Origin: Calditrichales bacterium MX18-03
GTDB lineage: Bacteria; Bacillota; Clostridia; Lutisporales; Lutisporaceae
NCBI GenBank assembly: GCA_021083345.1
Contig: JAJGRE010000002.1
Coordinates: 310,001 to 374,000 of the forward strand
DNA length: 64,000 nt
Direction of reading: 5' to 3'
A program made the position numbers and the translations under genes. The stretch's first letter is position 1, and the number at the start of each line of letters is the position of its first letter. Below the pieces are notes generated by a model. The model made no database searches. It had not been told where the DNA came from and saw only the letters and a list, made by a program, of their open reading frames with translations. Positions 902 through 5,586 of this stretch are shown here, piece after piece.

Positions 902-2275
902 CTACTCCCGCACCAACAATGCAACTGCCTCACAATGCACCGTATGCGGAAACATATCCACGGGCTGCACCTCTTGCACCTTGAATCCACGCTCTGCCAA
1001 ATACTTCAAATCCCTTGCCAGCGTGGCAGGGTTGCAGGATACATACACCACCCGCTCCGGCTTCATCTCAGCGATAACCTCCAGCAGCTCCTCCCCGCAG
1101 CCTTTTCGTGGCGGGTCTACGACGATGACGTCTGCCTTCACGCCTTTCCGGTATAGCTCCGGGATGACCTTCTCGGACTCGCCTAGAATAAACTCTGTAT
1201 TTGTCACGCTGTTCAGCTTTGCGTTTTCCTTTGCGTTTTCAATAGCCTGCTCAACAATTTCAACGCCATATACCATTTTTGCTCGCTTGCTTAAGAACAA
1301 GGATATTGTTCCGATACCGCAGTAAGCATCAAAGACTGTTTCATTCCCTGTCAGGCCTGCAAATTCAAGAGCTTTGCCGTACAGCACCTCGGTTTGCACC
1401 GGATTGACCTGAAAAAAGGAAAGTGGTGATATTTTGAATTTGAATTCCCCGATATAGTCATAAATGGCATCACTGCCGAAGAGTACGATATTACGGTCTC
1501 CCATTATGACATTGGTCCTTTGAACGTTAACATTCAAGATAACGCTCTTCAGACCCGCTATCTTGTCTTTGAGTTTCTCTACCAATACTTCTTTGTTGGG
1601 TAATGTGCCCCCATTGCATACGATGCACACCATGACCTCCCCAGTGACAAAGCCCTTCCGCGTCATCACATGGCGAACCAGCCCTTTCCCTGTTTTCTCA
1701 TCATACACGCTGATGCCGTATTTACCGATATACTCCCGGACAACAGCCACTGCATTCTCGCTCGCCTCGTCCTGAATCATGCACTGATTTGCATCAATGA
1801 TGTCGTGGGTCCGGTTGGCATAAAAACCGATCTTGAGCGTCCCGTCGGCTGCAAAGCCAACAGGGTACTGCGCCTTGTTCCTGTAGCGCCACGGCTCCTT
1901 CATGCCGATGGCATCGTGAATGGCAACGTCATCCAGCCCACCCAGGCGGTGAATCGCATCCCGCACCTGCTGCGTCTTGTATCGGAGCTGGGCCTCATAT
2001 GAGGCATGCTGCAGCTGGCAGCCTCCGCAGCGCTTGACTATGCCGCAGCCCGGCTCGATACGGTCCTTGGACGGCGTCATAATCCGCAGCAGCTTTCCAA
2101 AGCCATACGACTTCAGTGTCTTGACGATTTTGATTTCTGCGCGCTCACCATGAAGTGCACCATCCACAAATACCGTATAGCCCTCAATCCTTGCTACACC
2201 CGTGCCTTCGCTTGTCATTCCCGTTATGTCAACTATATAGTCCCGGTTCTTTTCTACCGGTATCCCCTTTTCCAT
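902..2275 (-). CDS. rlmD: 23S rRNA (uracil-5-)-methyltransferase RlmD/RumA family
   Basis: This is a SAM-dependent 5-methyluridine methyltransferase of 457 residues, the usual length for the RlmD/RlmCD group. A TRAM domain covers about residues 8-66. Cysteines at about 77, 83, 86 and 165 (CGIVKRCGGC and NQCMIQ) match the 4Fe-4S site of the family. The methyltransferase domain shows VFDAYCGIGTISLFLS for SAM binding, VVDPPRKGCG, and the nucleophile motif VYVSCNPATL near the C-terminus. The ATG at 2275 has AAGGAG seven bases upstream, so the 47-base overlap with the preceding DUF1003 gene is probably real and implies coupled translation. Whether it methylates U1939, U747 or both cannot be told here, because Gram-positive members vary. 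Confidence 0.93.
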   Translation of the reverse strand: MEKGIPVEKNRDYIVDITGMTSEGTGVARIEGYTVFVDGALHGERAEIKIVKTLKSYGFGKLLRIMTPSKDRIEPGCGIVKRCGGCQLQHASYEAQLRYKTQQVRDAIHRLGGLDDVAIHDAIGMKEPWRYRNKAQYPVGFAADGTLKIGFYANRTHDIIDANQCMIQDEASENAVAVVREYIGKYGISVYDEKTGKGLVRHVMTRKGFVTGEVMVCIVCNGGTLPNKEVLVEKLKDKIAGLKSVILNVNVQRTNVIMGDRNIVLFGSDAIYDYIGEFKFKISPLSFFQVNPVQTEVLYGKALEFAGLTGNETVFDAYCGIGTISLFLSKRAKMVYGVEIVEQAIENAKENAKLNSVTNTEFILGESEKVIPELYRKGVKADVIVVDPPRKGCGEELLEVIAEMKPERVVYVSCNPATLARDLKYLAERGFKVQEVQPVDMFPHTVHCEAVALLVRE

Positions 2276-2807
2276 CCAAACCGCTCCTTAAGTGCTCTTC
2301 CGCGTTATATTTGTCCATATCCATCTTAATCTCTCTCAGCGTCTTTTTCAATACCTTCTGCTCATGAATAATGTCATCAATTTTCATATGCAGGTCCTCC
2401 AATATGATTTCGGACTTTAGGTTGATCAGATAATCGTTTTCCGACCGAAGCCGGTCTTTCTGGGACTCCCTGTTCTGACTCATCATGATGATGGGTGCCT
2501 GCACAGAAGCGATACAGCCCAAAATCAGGTTCAAGAACACATAGGGGTATGGATCGAAGGGTCTGCTAAGAATCAGCCTGGTGTTGGTTATCATCCATGC
2601 CAGGATGATCATCCCAAAAAAGCTCAAGAAGGACCAGCTTCCAGCAAAGGATGCGATCCTGTCAGCCAGCTTCTCTCCAAATGTAGAGCTCTTGCATAGC
2701 TCTATATTCATATTAAGCGACCGTTTGCCTCTGATCAGCTCATGGATCTGCTGCTCCCGCTCTTCTTCGTCCGATAAGATGGTATCTGTCAGATTGTTCT
2801 TACTCAT
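2229..2807 (-). CDS. DUF1003 family membrane protein
   Basis: A 192-residue protein with the DUF1003 hallmarks: ADRIASFAGSWSFLSFFG leading into a first membrane helix at about residues 55-72, then DPYPYVFLNLILGCIASVQA forming a second, then the polar stretch MMSQNRESQKDRLRSEND. The C-terminal third is hydrophilic and helical with many charged residues. The function of the family is not established. AGGAG precedes the ATG by about ten bases. Its 3' end overlaps rlmD by 47 bases. It lies about 70 bases downstream of the short ORF that follows the HTH-TPR regulator, so the four genes may be co-transcribed. Confidence 0.88.
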   Translation of the reverse strand: MSKNNLTDTILSDEEEREQQIHELIRGKRSLNMNIELCKSSTFGEKLADRIASFAGSWSFLSFFGMIILAWMITNTRLILSRPFDPYPYVFLNLILGCIASVQAPIIMMSQNRESQKDRLRSENDYLINLKSEIILEDLHMKIDDIIHEQKVLKKTLREIKMDMDKYNAEEHLRSGLDGKGDTGRKEPGLYS

Positions 2808-2858
2808 CGCAACACGCTCCTGAGTCTTTTGGAATTATTTTGTGTTGCGGTGCATATA

Positions 2859-2897
2859 AAATATGCATTGCACGCCTCACGCATGCAATGCATATTT
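2859..2897 (-). repeat. Perfect 14-bp inverted repeat at the 3' end of the short ORF
   Basis: AAATATGCATTGCA (2859-2872) and TGCAATGCATATTT (2884-2897) are exact reverse complements around an 11-base loop. The hairpin covers the last codons and stop of the 39-codon ORF and lies about 50 bases before the DUF1003 start. It lacks a clean T-run, though TTTTATATG follows on the minus strand. It could be a weak terminator, an attenuator between peptide and downstream genes, or an operator. Confidence 0.5.
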
Positions 2898-2996
2898 CAA
2901 AACATCATAGGGCTCAATATCTTCAATCATTTTCCCCATTGCTTTCCCCAACCATGGAATCATTTTTTGCAGAATTACAGCAGCTCTTTTTATCAT
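2877..2996 (-). CDS. 39-residue ORF after the HTH-TPR regulator, candidate signalling propeptide
   Basis: This small frame begins with ATG at 2996, seven bases after AAGGGTGG, and ends with TGA at 2877. The product starts with the basic stretch MIKR, followed by a hydrophobic part (AAVILQKMIPWLG) and then GKAMGKM, and ends with the acidic-to-mixed segment IEDIEPYDVLKYALHA. It begins 53 bases after the stop codon of the HTH-TPR gene on the same strand. A short secretable propeptide just downstream of a TPR receptor is the standard arrangement of RRNPP quorum-sensing cassettes (for example NprR-NprX, and the Qsr/Qsp pairs in solventogenic clostridia). The role as a signal is inferred from architecture; the peptide itself is not recognised. 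A chance ORF remains possible. Confidence 0.55.
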   Translation of the reverse strand: MIKRAAVILQKMIPWLGKAMGKMIEDIEPYDVLKYALHA

Positions 2997-3049
2997 TTGA
3001 TTACCACCCTTCGTTATCTGTTATTATTTTTGGAACGACGATTAAAAAA

Positions 3050-4321
3050 TTATCCACGGATTGCTTTTTTTCTGAGGCAAATGCTGCCTAGGCAAGTTGT
3101 CAGCTTCAGCCGATACTCTTCGTTTTCCTTGGCTGTCTCATGAATCAGCTTGATGACCACATCTTTAAGACCGTCTAGAATGCTTTGATCCAGATTTTCT
3201 ATGCGGATGATGCTATTGACAGCATTAATGATGAAGGTCTTGTGCAACTGCAAGTCATGCACCTTGGACAGAAGCTCCAGGAATTTATCGAATGCGGCTT
3301 CCGGCTCCCCCATCAGCAGCTTGATTTCTGTATAGGTTCCGAAGACGATGAAGCTGCGGGAGTCATCCATACGGTCAAAGTTGGCAAGTGCCCAGTTGAT
3401 ATAGGAAAGCGCCCTTTCGAATTGACCCAGCAGCTTGTATACATCCGCCATATTATTGTAAATGGCGTTCATGCCCATATAATCATTCTTATCCAGTGTT
3501 GTCAGTGCCTGACGATAGTGCTTCAAGGCTTCCTTCAGGTTATTCTGCCTTCTGTGAAGGATGCCGATGTTCATGACAGCCATCGCCAGGTCATGCTTTT
3601 CATCGGCGCAGGACACAGCTCTGAGCAGCAATGGCTTGGCCAGTTCATACTCACCCCTGCTGCTGAACAGCAGTCCGTATCTGTAATAGTGCAGGAACTG
3701 GGTTTTACGGTCAATACCGGTTGAAGTCATCATCATTCTTTGTACTTCTTCATAATTGCTCTTAGCTTCTGCATAGTCGCAGTTGTAGAAGCAGATCAGT
3801 CCCAGCTCCGAGCAATATGCTGCAAGCAGGGTTTCAGCCTTCTCCGTCCTGACCATATCGATGGCAACCTGCAGCAGGTTTCTGGCTGTATTGATATCGT
3901 TCCTGTGAAAATAATACATGCCGATGGCCCGATGCATTTTTGCCTTATCCAGGTTCAGGTTCAGCTCGGAGCACAGTTTCCTTAATGCCTCCAGCACCTG
4001 CAGATCTTCATCGTCCTTGTAGTCCCGAATATTCCTGGCAACCTGGTCGACCAACCGGATGATCTGCTGCTGCTTCGACAGTACGATCTCAAAGTAACTG
4101 ATCTGCAGCTCCTGTATCAGAAGCTGCTTGAAATCCCCCGAGCCGCCGTTGGCCTGCCTGAGATACTTCCTGACAGTTTCATACCGCATGCCTATGATTT
4201 CTGCAAACTCCCTCATTGTCTTGTACTTGCGCAATATAGCCTTTTCTATTTGCTGCCCTTCGGATAAAAACCGGATATCTTCCTGCTTCAACTTCAATCC
4301 CAACACCGCCATTTTCATCAT
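3050..4321 (-). CDS. HTH-TPR transcriptional regulator, RRNPP-like
   Basis: A 423-residue protein. Residues about 35-62 (TMREFAEIIGMRYETVRKYL) form an XRE-like helix-turn-helix. Residues about 120-400 are almost entirely helical with tandem TPR-like units, such as MHRAIGMYYFHRNDINTARN, AAYCSELGLICFYNCDYAEA, MAVMNIGILHRRQNNLKEAL and AIYNNMADVYKLLGQFERAL. HTH plus a C-terminal TPR array at this length matches the NprR-type RRNPP receptors, which bind short re-imported peptides. The short ORF at 2877-2996 is the obvious candidate ligand gene. The first ATG pair at 4318-4321 lacks a clear Shine-Dalgarno sequence, so the start is less certain than the frame. A peptide-independent stress regulator with TPRs cannot be excluded. 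Confidence 0.8.
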   Translation of the reverse strand: MMKMAVLGLKLKQEDIRFLSEGQQIEKAILRKYKTMREFAEIIGMRYETVRKYLRQANGGSGDFKQLLIQELQISYFEIVLSKQQQIIRLVDQVARNIRDYKDDEDLQVLEALRKLCSELNLNLDKAKMHRAIGMYYFHRNDINTARNLLQVAIDMVRTEKAETLLAAYCSELGLICFYNCDYAEAKSNYEEVQRMMMTSTGIDRKTQFLHYYRYGLLFSSRGEYELAKPLLLRAVSCADEKHDLAMAVMNIGILHRRQNNLKEALKHYRQALTTLDKNDYMGMNAIYNNMADVYKLLGQFERALSYINWALANFDRMDDSRSFIVFGTYTEIKLLMGEPEAAFDKFLELLSKVHDLQLHKTFIINAVNSIIRIENLDQSILDGLKDVVIKLIHETAKENEEYRLKLTTCLGSICLRKKAIRG

Positions 4322-4475
4322 AATCAGTTAATTCCATTTTGGCACATTCTTCGCCTGATTTGTATATTTTTCGACAAACGGTCACTTTTATCATATAAAC
4401 GGTAGCATTTGGCGGTTGAATGCAGTTTTGTACAGTTAATTCAGCCATTCACATTCACTCTGATTTATAAAATAT

Positions 4476-4509
4476 GAAGGCTGACCGTTATGAGATCCGG
4501 TCAGCCTTC
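4476..4509 (-). terminator. Terminator after the M29 aminopeptidase
   Basis: GAAGGCTGACCG (4476-4487) and CGGTCAGCCTTC (4498-4509) are perfect 12-bp arms with a 10-base loop. ATATTTTATAAAT follows on the minus strand. The hairpin starts three bases after the stop codon. Confidence 0.75.
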
Positions 4510-4512
4510 TGT

Positions 4513-5586
4513 TTACTCAAATAGGAATACGCCGTTTTTCTGTACCAGTATATCGTCAAGATAGATTTCTCCGCAGTCCCTCAATTCCTTGATCATATCC
4601 CAATGGATGCTTGAGCGGTTATCCCCGCCGGAGCCTTCATAGGCATTGCCTACAGCCAGATGGATGGTTCCCCCGATCTTTTCATCAAAAAGGATATTCT
4701 TAATAAACCGTGTGATGCCATAGTTCATTCCAATGCCGAACTCTCCCAGATACCTTGCACCCGCATCGGTATCCAGTATTTTATTCAGGAAGGTTTCATT
4801 CTTGTCAGCCTTTGCGCTGACCACTCTGCCCTCTTTGAATTCCAGCCTCGCAGCATCCACCTGGTTCCCGTAACGAATTACCGGGAACTCGTAATAAATA
4901 TGTCCGTTTACCGAATTGGTAATCGGCGCGTAATAGACTTCTCCGTCCGGTATGTTGTTCTGCCCGCTGCATTTTGTTCCGCTTCTGCCTTGAATGTCGA
5001 AGGTCAGGTCGGTATCACGGCCGATGATCCGGACCTTGGATGCCGAGTCGAACCGTTCCAGGACACGGTTCATCTCCATGTCCATCTTTTTATAGTCTAC
5101 CAGTGCAGCGTCGAATAGAAAATCCTCATATTCTTCCAGTGACATATCGGCTTCCTGTGCAAACGCGTGTGTGGGATAATTGGTAAGCACCCACCTTTTG
5201 TCGGTGATGGTGCGCAGTACCGGCGCCAAGGCTTTGTTATACGCTACAATTCTTTCCGGCGACACGCCTGCCAGGTATTTGACGTTTTCCGGCGCCTCAA
5301 TGCAAAGGACGGCATCCGCTCTATCGTAAATACTGCCATAGCTGTCGTTCATGCTTTCCAACTGCGCTTCTGATGCATTTTCCATGTAATGCTTCTTATG
5401 ATCGTCCATTATGACATGAACAAATGCATTGGCACCCACATGGGTGACCTTCGTGTAAAACGCGTCGATCAAAGGCTTTGCCTGATAATGCGACCGGATG
5501 ATCACATTTTCCCCCGGTTTGATTTCCAGTGAATGGTCCGCCAAGACATCTGCCAGCTTTGACAGTCTTTCATCTCTCATTTCCAC
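4513..5586 (-). CDS. Aminopeptidase, M29 family (AmpS/PepS/AmpT-like)
   Basis: A cytoplasmic metallo-aminopeptidase that removes N-terminal residues from peptides. It is 357 residues long, slightly shorter than the typical 370-410. The N-terminal Rossmann-like part ends near residue 170. The C-terminal catalytic part shows the family's metal-site motifs: PDGEVYYAPITNSVNG, YLGEFGIGMN, GGTIHLAVGNAY and SSIHWDMIKELR. Translation can start at GTG (5584-5586), six bases after AGAGGGGCGG, or at the ATG two codons later; the GTG spacing is better. It stands alone between two terminators. Confidence 0.88.
   Translation of the reverse strand: MEMRDERLSKLADVLADHSLEIKPGENVIIRSHYQAKPLIDAFYTKVTHVGANAFVHVIMDDHKKHYMENASEAQLESMNDSYGSIYDRADAVLCIEAPENVKYLAGVSPERIVAYNKALAPVLRTITDKRWVLTNYPTHAFAQEADMSLEEYEDFLFDAALVDYKKMDMEMNRVLERFDSASKVRIIGRDTDLTFDIQGRSGTKCSGQNNIPDGEVYYAPITNSVNGHIYYEFPVIRYGNQVDAARLEFKEGRVVSAKADKNETFLNKILDTDAGARYLGEFGIGMNYGITRFIKNILFDEKIGGTIHLAVGNAYEGSGGDNRSSIHWDMIKELRDCGEIYLDDILVQKNGVFLFE

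Follow-up and report, generated by a model that had tools for sequence, protein, structure and literature searches.

Organization of the locus

The window (the whole stretch of DNA analysed, 64,000 nt) carries on its minus strand the gene of a helix-turn-helix (HTH) TPR receptor at 3050..4321 (-), 423 aa from the first ATG. After a gap of 53 nt it is followed by a 39-codon open reading frame (ORF) at 2877..2996 (-) (MIKRAAVILQKMIPWLGKAMGKMIEDIEPYDVLKYALHA), with the ribosome-site-like AAGGGTGG at 3004..3011 (-), seven bases ahead of the ATG. The original prediction had read the two ORFs as a peptide quorum-sensing pair of the RRNPP type, and its placement of both ORFs and of the ribosome site was confirmed. 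Judged from the sequence, translation of the receptor probably begins with the TTG at 4297, for a product of about 415 aa; this codon lies just 3′ of GGCGGTG and in line with the starts of the relatives.

The receptor module is flanked on the left by an M29 aminopeptidase gene at 4513..5586 (-) (Pfam PF02073, E 7.6e-67) and on the right by the gene of a DUF1003 protein at 2229..2807 (-) (Pfam PF06210, E 8.4e-34), both also placed by synteny. The M29 gene directly adjoins the DUF1003 gene in 5 of the 15 DUF1003 loci of the family (L122, L123, L125, L127, and L130), with gaps of 115–195 nt, and a receptor precedes the DUF1003 gene in the window's genome, G002 and G008. No M29 gene was seen in another seven of the 15 loci within the DNA available around each. 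In G002 a Sec-type propeptide fills the slot 3′ of the receptor, with a strong hairpin (-46.5 kcal/mol) behind it, and in G008 the receptor stop lies about 60 nt from the DUF1003 gene with no peptide gene between them. In the window (902-2807) the DUF1003 gene overlaps an RlmCD-like gene, and the two stand side by side in all 15 DUF1003 loci. Inspection by eye of the ORF lists of 26 receptor loci revealed no shared neighbours.

A 17-nt-arm inverted repeat at 2859..2897 (-) (-28 kcal/mol, z -4.8) contains the stop codon of the 39-codon ORF and is a possible terminator of the receptor-ORF unit. A second hairpin, at 4476..4509 (-) (-26.5 kcal/mol, z -5.0), lies 3′ of the upstream M29 gene as its possible terminator, and the tail AUAUUUUAUA is common to both. 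Neither hairpin was called by a consensus terminator scan, which was negative throughout 2700-4600. We also considered the inverted repeat as a repeated operator and rejected this, as the genome contains it only once when up to three mismatches are allowed.

Fold of the receptor and its conserved asparagines

The AlphaFold2 model of the receptor, made with 32 aligned family members as input, has a mean pLDDT of 94.2. Whole-length structural alignment placed seven Rap chains at the top of the PDB (Z 24.8–26.0 over 309–324 residues), all of which carry a pheromone or an inhibitory peptide; among Rap chains, 4gyo reached Z 26.0 (rmsd 4.1, 318 residues), 8rst 26.0 and 4i9c 25.2. NprR (5dbk, Z 23.3; 4gpk, 21.8) and AimR (5zw5, 19.6) were aligned as well, and the Rap, NprR, and AimR folds were all among the 50 best structural alignments. 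Sequence identity is 9–14% in the Rap and NprR rows. TPR proteins from outside the RRNPP group came close behind Rap in the same alignment (TONSOKU, Z 24.7; APPBP2, 23.5; LGN, 22.2), and with Foldseek alone consensus TPR, SPINDLY and LGN chains stood above Rap, with RapF at rank 39.

The codon at 3569..3571 (-) encodes Asn247 (model numbering), the equivalent of RapF Asn227, which is described as the invariant RNPP asparagine that holds the peptide backbone (PMC3601957). Asn247 is kept in 31 of the 32 family members, and Asn285 in the next TPR (codon at 3455..3457, (-)) in all 32. The peptide-contact asparagines, whose lack would have spoken against the original prediction, are thus present. 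When the receptor profile was compared with the eight Rap proteins of one genome, hhalign gave a probability of 98.8 (E 6.5e-17) and put Asn247 on an asparagine common to all eight. This comparison used all eight Rap loci unfiltered; a subset of three of the eight, chosen with a motif filter biased towards the asparagine, agrees with it.

These results bear on whether the protein might simply be an ordinary HTH-TPR regulator without peptide control. TPR folds are common scaffolds and unrelated TPR proteins align well too, but the invariant RNPP asparagine, the Sec-type ORF beside 25 of the 32 members (see below) and the top place of the Rap chains in whole-length alignment make this explanation highly improbable. 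The same three lines, fold, asparagine and pairing, back the receptor half of the original prediction, and the large gene is convincingly predicted to encode an RRNPP-type receptor.

The N-terminal domain at 4076..4270 (-) was modeled alone (pLDDT 88.4), and the computation shows an XRE-type HTH fold in this model. XRE-type domains matched in the structural alignment were those of ImmR (Z 9.2), SinR (8.6), P22 c2 (7.8), ComR (7.2), and PrgX (7.1), although Z values of 7–9 are modest and enzymes such as HEPD also occur among the rows. At the sequence level the domain gave a weak, sub-cut-off match to the NCBIfam family PezA (residues 31-83, E 0.0079), and no XRE-type family was found among 25 of the 44 Pfam families matched by the 32 members. 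The receptor is probably also a DNA-binding regulator.

Distribution of the receptor subfamily

At E 1e-15 the receptor has matches in six of 22 genomes searched from the window's family, a single family of Clostridia; these 22 are also the genomes searched from its order. The window's genome (G000) has three matches, G002 and G009 two each, G008 one and G020 one fragment. The 33 matches of G004, a single metagenome bin, include fragments; the same bin has 31 short-frame hits to the propeptide profile. When the search was extended to 391 genomes of the class, the same six matched at E 1e-20, with at most four candidates per genome scored. Among 398 genomes of the phylum, scored with the same maximum of four candidates per genome, partial TPR matches at E 1e-15 appeared in six outside the window's genome, the best at 1e-22. 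Five contigs with relatives were found in GTDB, four of them metagenome bins of uncultured Clostridia or Bacillota and the fifth a weak match in Lokiarchaeota; the isolate names of the metagenome-bin relatives hint at digesters as their source.

A phage or plasmid system was considered and set aside. Among 50,697 phage records none matched the receptor at E 1e-3, six plasmid records gave generic TPR matches, and one IMG/VR contig carries a near relative. A scan of viral sequences with the multi-copy subgroup returned nine pattern stretches, none of them a relative. The near relative from the viral collection (L075, IMGVR_UViG_3300027719_000026) lacks the HTH and has no sense-strand propeptide ORF.

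We regard these receptors as a new subfamily of a known kind, RRNPP, and in a literature search of open PMC papers no description of this receptor lineage was found. A survey of RRNPP systems describes itself as covering complete genomes only and names contigs and metagenome bins as still to be searched (PMC10075063). The relatives in metagenome bins of uncultured Clostridia or Bacillota would lie outside the reach of such a survey. The 33 copies in G004 are not claimed as a record; one Rap-bearing genome gave 13 Rap matches.

Propeptide partners of the receptors

Partners were counted from the 42 matches at E 1e-15, of which 36 were read and 32 kept, the window included. L044, L046, and L057 were dropped because they run off the contig and L039 because of its short downstream DNA, and the count leaves out five G004 matches (C40, C61, C165, C11:6630, and C151:29991) and the G020 fragment. 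By a home-made signal-peptide rule, a Sec-signal-like ORF lies directly 3′ of the receptor in 25 of the 32 members. In all 25 the first Sec-type ORF starts between -20 and +20 nt from the receptor stop, within a searched range of -70 to +200. The same pairing arose in 2.4% of mononucleotide shuffles, in 3.5% of first-order random sequences and on the antisense strand of 5 of 32 members, the last being above random sequence. L049 fails the rule but is of Sec type by eye, which gives 26 members with its inclusion. No Sec-type partner ORF was seen for the window receptor, L011, L012, L025, L035, and L050.

Taken as a whole, the subfamily thus has an adjacent propeptide gene. The computation shows a lineage-specific subfamily, most members of which are followed by a Sec-signal-like propeptide ORF.

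Of the 31 aligned propeptides, 26 contain DP and 19 contain DPxG, near the presumed signal-peptide cleavage site. Left out of this alignment (A4) were the L052 propeptide and one further motif-less, rule-passing ORF each in L047 and L051. Six receptors (L042, L040, L045, L058, L059, and L060) are followed by two propeptides in tandem, and the second propeptide of L042 has no DP. A motif region occurs twice within three single propeptides: as VDDVGL in L063 (6335-6481), VHDTxPD in L064 (4636-4839), and DPYN in L052 (1327-1545). Because it is repeated inside these three propeptides, the sequence suggests that this segment is the mature signal. Pheromone duplication has been reported for Rap systems (PMC11343458) and for several RRNPPA subfamilies (PMC9765709).

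Short frames matching the propeptide profile at E 1e-6 or better were found in 4 of the 22 genomes (G004, 31; G009, 3; G000, 2; G002, 2). All four also have receptors; G008 and G020 have receptor matches and no profile hit. The alignment itself accounts for 25 of the 31 G004 hits and for all hits in G000 and G002 as its rows, and only seven hits are new (six in G004 and one in G009). Single propeptides gave weak matches to two PHROGs families and three NCBIfam families, including NheA for two members (0.0014), which we take as signal-peptide or chance likeness.

The 39-codon ORF in the propeptide slot

The 39-codon ORF occupies the slot that holds the propeptide gene in most other members, and its product is amphipathic. 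The hydrophobic first half ascribed to it by the original prediction could not be recovered: its best 12-residue stretch scores 1.37 on the Kyte-Doolittle scale compared with 2.32–3.68 for the 32 propeptides of the receptor subfamily, and the hydrophobic stretch is broken by K11, P14, K18, and K22. Its amphipathic moment is 0.57, against 0.15–0.40 in the same 32 propeptides, and it has six lysine or arginine residues. The ORF fails the signal-peptide rule, and no Sec-secreted propeptide was found at the window locus.

Chance was estimated with random sequence matched in first-order composition: 23.5% of trials gave an ATG ORF that begins within 90 nt and has 39 codons or more, and 1.3% gave one that also has a ribosome-site match (2.2% when any start codon is accepted). 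In codon usage the ORF is intermediate: its 0.037 bits per codon are attained by 0.94% of random ORFs, and a score this low is found for only 5.4% of genuine coding stretches. All these tests were picked after the ORF had been seen. The ORF may be translated, given its ribosome site, its codon bias and the hairpin at its stop, and it is possibly a gene.

Likeness to the subfamily propeptides was sought in several ways. The propeptide profile scored the ORF at -1.2 bits, which 95 of 300 spurious ORFs equalled, as did 995 of 2000 shuffles. Comparison with the family propeptides gave a best pairwise z of 1.58 (p 0.093 among the 31 tried), and the DNA of the ORF region compared with L063 gave p 0.36. 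With no signal in profile, pairwise or DNA comparisons, a diverged family propeptide was rejected. An EDIEPYD segment is loosely like the family motif (shuffle p 0.061; equalled by 24 of 300 spurious ORFs); with position also required, a criterion decided after looking, the values are p 0.015 and 5 of 300. In 21 related genomes, all from outside the window's genus, no homologue was found below E 0.04, and the next-best match, at E 0.04, lies inside a 308-aa frame. Conservation of the short ORF and of its C-terminus, by which the original prediction was to be judged, is in effect lacking in this search.

Two further candidates for a partner were rejected. A propeptide elsewhere in the module would have to be encoded by a rule-passing ORF of 20–90 aa, and there is none on either strand of 2801-4520. 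As for an unpaired propeptide elsewhere in the window's genome, short-frame profile hits at E 1e-6 occur only at its two paralogue loci.

What the ORF encodes can be read in more than one way. The pair may be real, since the ORF has a good ribosome site, a codon usage that 0.94% of random ORFs reach, the right slot and a hairpin at its end. The 39-aa product would then be the precursor of the cognate signal, leave the cell by a non-Sec route and be sensed through its C-terminal part. The slot it occupies, its ribosome site, its codon bias and the place of the hairpin are all consistent with this, as is L063, which has a propeptide in exactly the same place between the same flanking genes. SHP and ComS are examples of non-Sec peptides. 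Leaderless peptides and export by PptAB are reported for other RRNPP receptors (PMC12700828; PMC10518010), but the non-Sec peptides are there assigned to the five-TPR clade of PrgX, TraA, ComR and Rgg (PMC12700828). The ORF moreover has neither a homologue in the 21 relatives nor a profile match, and the consensus terminator scan did not call the hairpin. We therefore consider a cognate precursor possible but doubtful.

Alternatively, the ORF could be translated but have no signalling role, its product being an amphipathic peptide, co-produced with the receptor, that acts on membranes or in regulation. The moment of 0.57, the missing Sec-type core, the six basic residues and the codon bias would fit such a peptide, whereas the product matched nothing in Pfam or NCBIfam up to E 1 and shows no conservation, and this reading appears improbable.

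As a propeptide of the kind originally proposed, the ORF is left unsupported: it has no Sec core, no profile match, no homologue, and no counterpart beside the nearest receptors.

Near relatives of the window receptor and loss of the HTH domain

In the receptor tree the window receptor groups with L075 (98/90), and next with L063 and L012 (98/96). Only L063 among these four has a rule-passing propeptide on the sense strand. This propeptide is of Sec type, is unrelated to the 39-aa ORF and fills the corresponding slot, with the same genes on either side. The ORFs of L012 and L075 that pass the rule (one and two, respectively) all lie on the antisense strand and lack a ribosome site.

A complete HTH is absent in 5 of 33 relatives: L063 (5253-6311), L012 (1471-2568), L075 (2938-4050), L064, and L062. 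The alignment gap of L063 and L012 corresponds to window residues 18-79, which is just the HTH. In L062 a remnant of the domain is possible in the sequence, because the profile match begins at position 41. On the tree the HTH states take two changes if regain is allowed and, by our own count, three losses if it is not. Loss of the HTH within one small subfamily is Rap-like.

Comparison with known peptide-receptor systems

The nine-TPR systems Rap-Phr and NprR-NprX share the fold of the window receptor (Z 26 and 23) and its invariant asparagine, and like most of the subfamily they have a small Sec-type ORF directly downstream. Some members of the subfamily have the HTH, like NprR, and others lack it, like Rap. 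The subfamily differs from both in its low sequence identity (9–14%) and in the DP or DPxG of most of its propeptides, and the window locus differs in having no Sec-type propeptide. AimR of the AimR-AimP system has a related fold (Z 19.6), but the subfamily is without a match in phage records.

The Qsr-Qsp and QssR systems of solventogenic Clostridium are described as an HTH-TPR receptor followed by a gene for a 39–50 aa peptide (PMC7376267; PMC7206700), with eight Qsr-Qsp copies reported in C. acetobutylicum and Leu, Pro, and Trp common to the C-terminal end of the Qsp peptides (PMC7376267). By this description the subfamily resembles Qsr-Qsp in its HTH-TPR receptor with a short peptide gene, its host class and its several copies per genome. 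It differs in that most of its propeptides carry a DP or DPxG immediately behind the presumed cleavage site. The 39-aa product of the window does not show the C-terminal Leu, Pro, and Trp of Qsp: it ends in EPYDVLKYALHA, with no Trp there.

The AloR-AloP system of Paenibacillus polymyxa is reported to have downstream ORFs of 32–50 aa at all but three homologues, with loci numbered alo1 to alo16 in one strain (PMC7425212). As described, it is like the subfamily in being multi-copy, in its short downstream ORFs and in its few partnerless receptors, but its host is Paenibacillus and not one of the Clostridia. A DPG motif has been reported for the peptides of Paenibacillaceae subfamily 08 (PMC12700828), compared with DP-x-G near the presumed cleavage site here, and the likeness may be convergent.

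Proposed function of the window receptor

By analogy with the known systems, the propeptide of a usual subfamily member would be exported by Sec and cut to a short, mostly DP-containing peptide. An Opp-type transporter would then re-import this peptide, and its binding in the TPR groove would change DNA binding. Members without the HTH would presumably act on proteins, like Rap. The window's genome encodes five Opp-type binding proteins, a common class that proves nothing specific.

For the window receptor itself, the best explanation, which we hold with moderate confidence, is an RRNPP-type receptor that has lost, or never had, a standard pheromone gene of its own and senses peptides made elsewhere. 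These peptides could come from the two paralogue loci or from neighbours. Orphan "eavesdropper" receptors have been described (PMC9765709). An orphan, eavesdropping receptor is likelier than one for which the 39-aa product is the cognate signal.

A more far-reaching idea is that one nine-TPR clade swapped its Sec-exported pheromone for an unrelated, leaderless, amphipathic 39-aa peptide in the same operon slot. We consider such a swap unlikely; if true, a leaderless signal would here be paired with an RRNPP receptor of the nine-TPR type.

The window copy offers a test of whether a receptor remains in use after its own signal has been lost or replaced. The genome with 33 receptor matches is material for studying how peptide-receptor specificity diverges, and the subfamily adds to this its tandem and internally repeated propeptides, several lines that have lost the DNA-binding domain, and its partnerless members.

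One paralogue of the window receptor, L061 (G000:C7:786000-798000), is accompanied by a Sec-type propeptide of its own, MKKVGFAILLAVVLMFSASTAVFAGDHTDPHVIIVTPGTGVETSK. By eye only, ORFs resembling transposases and repressors were seen near it.
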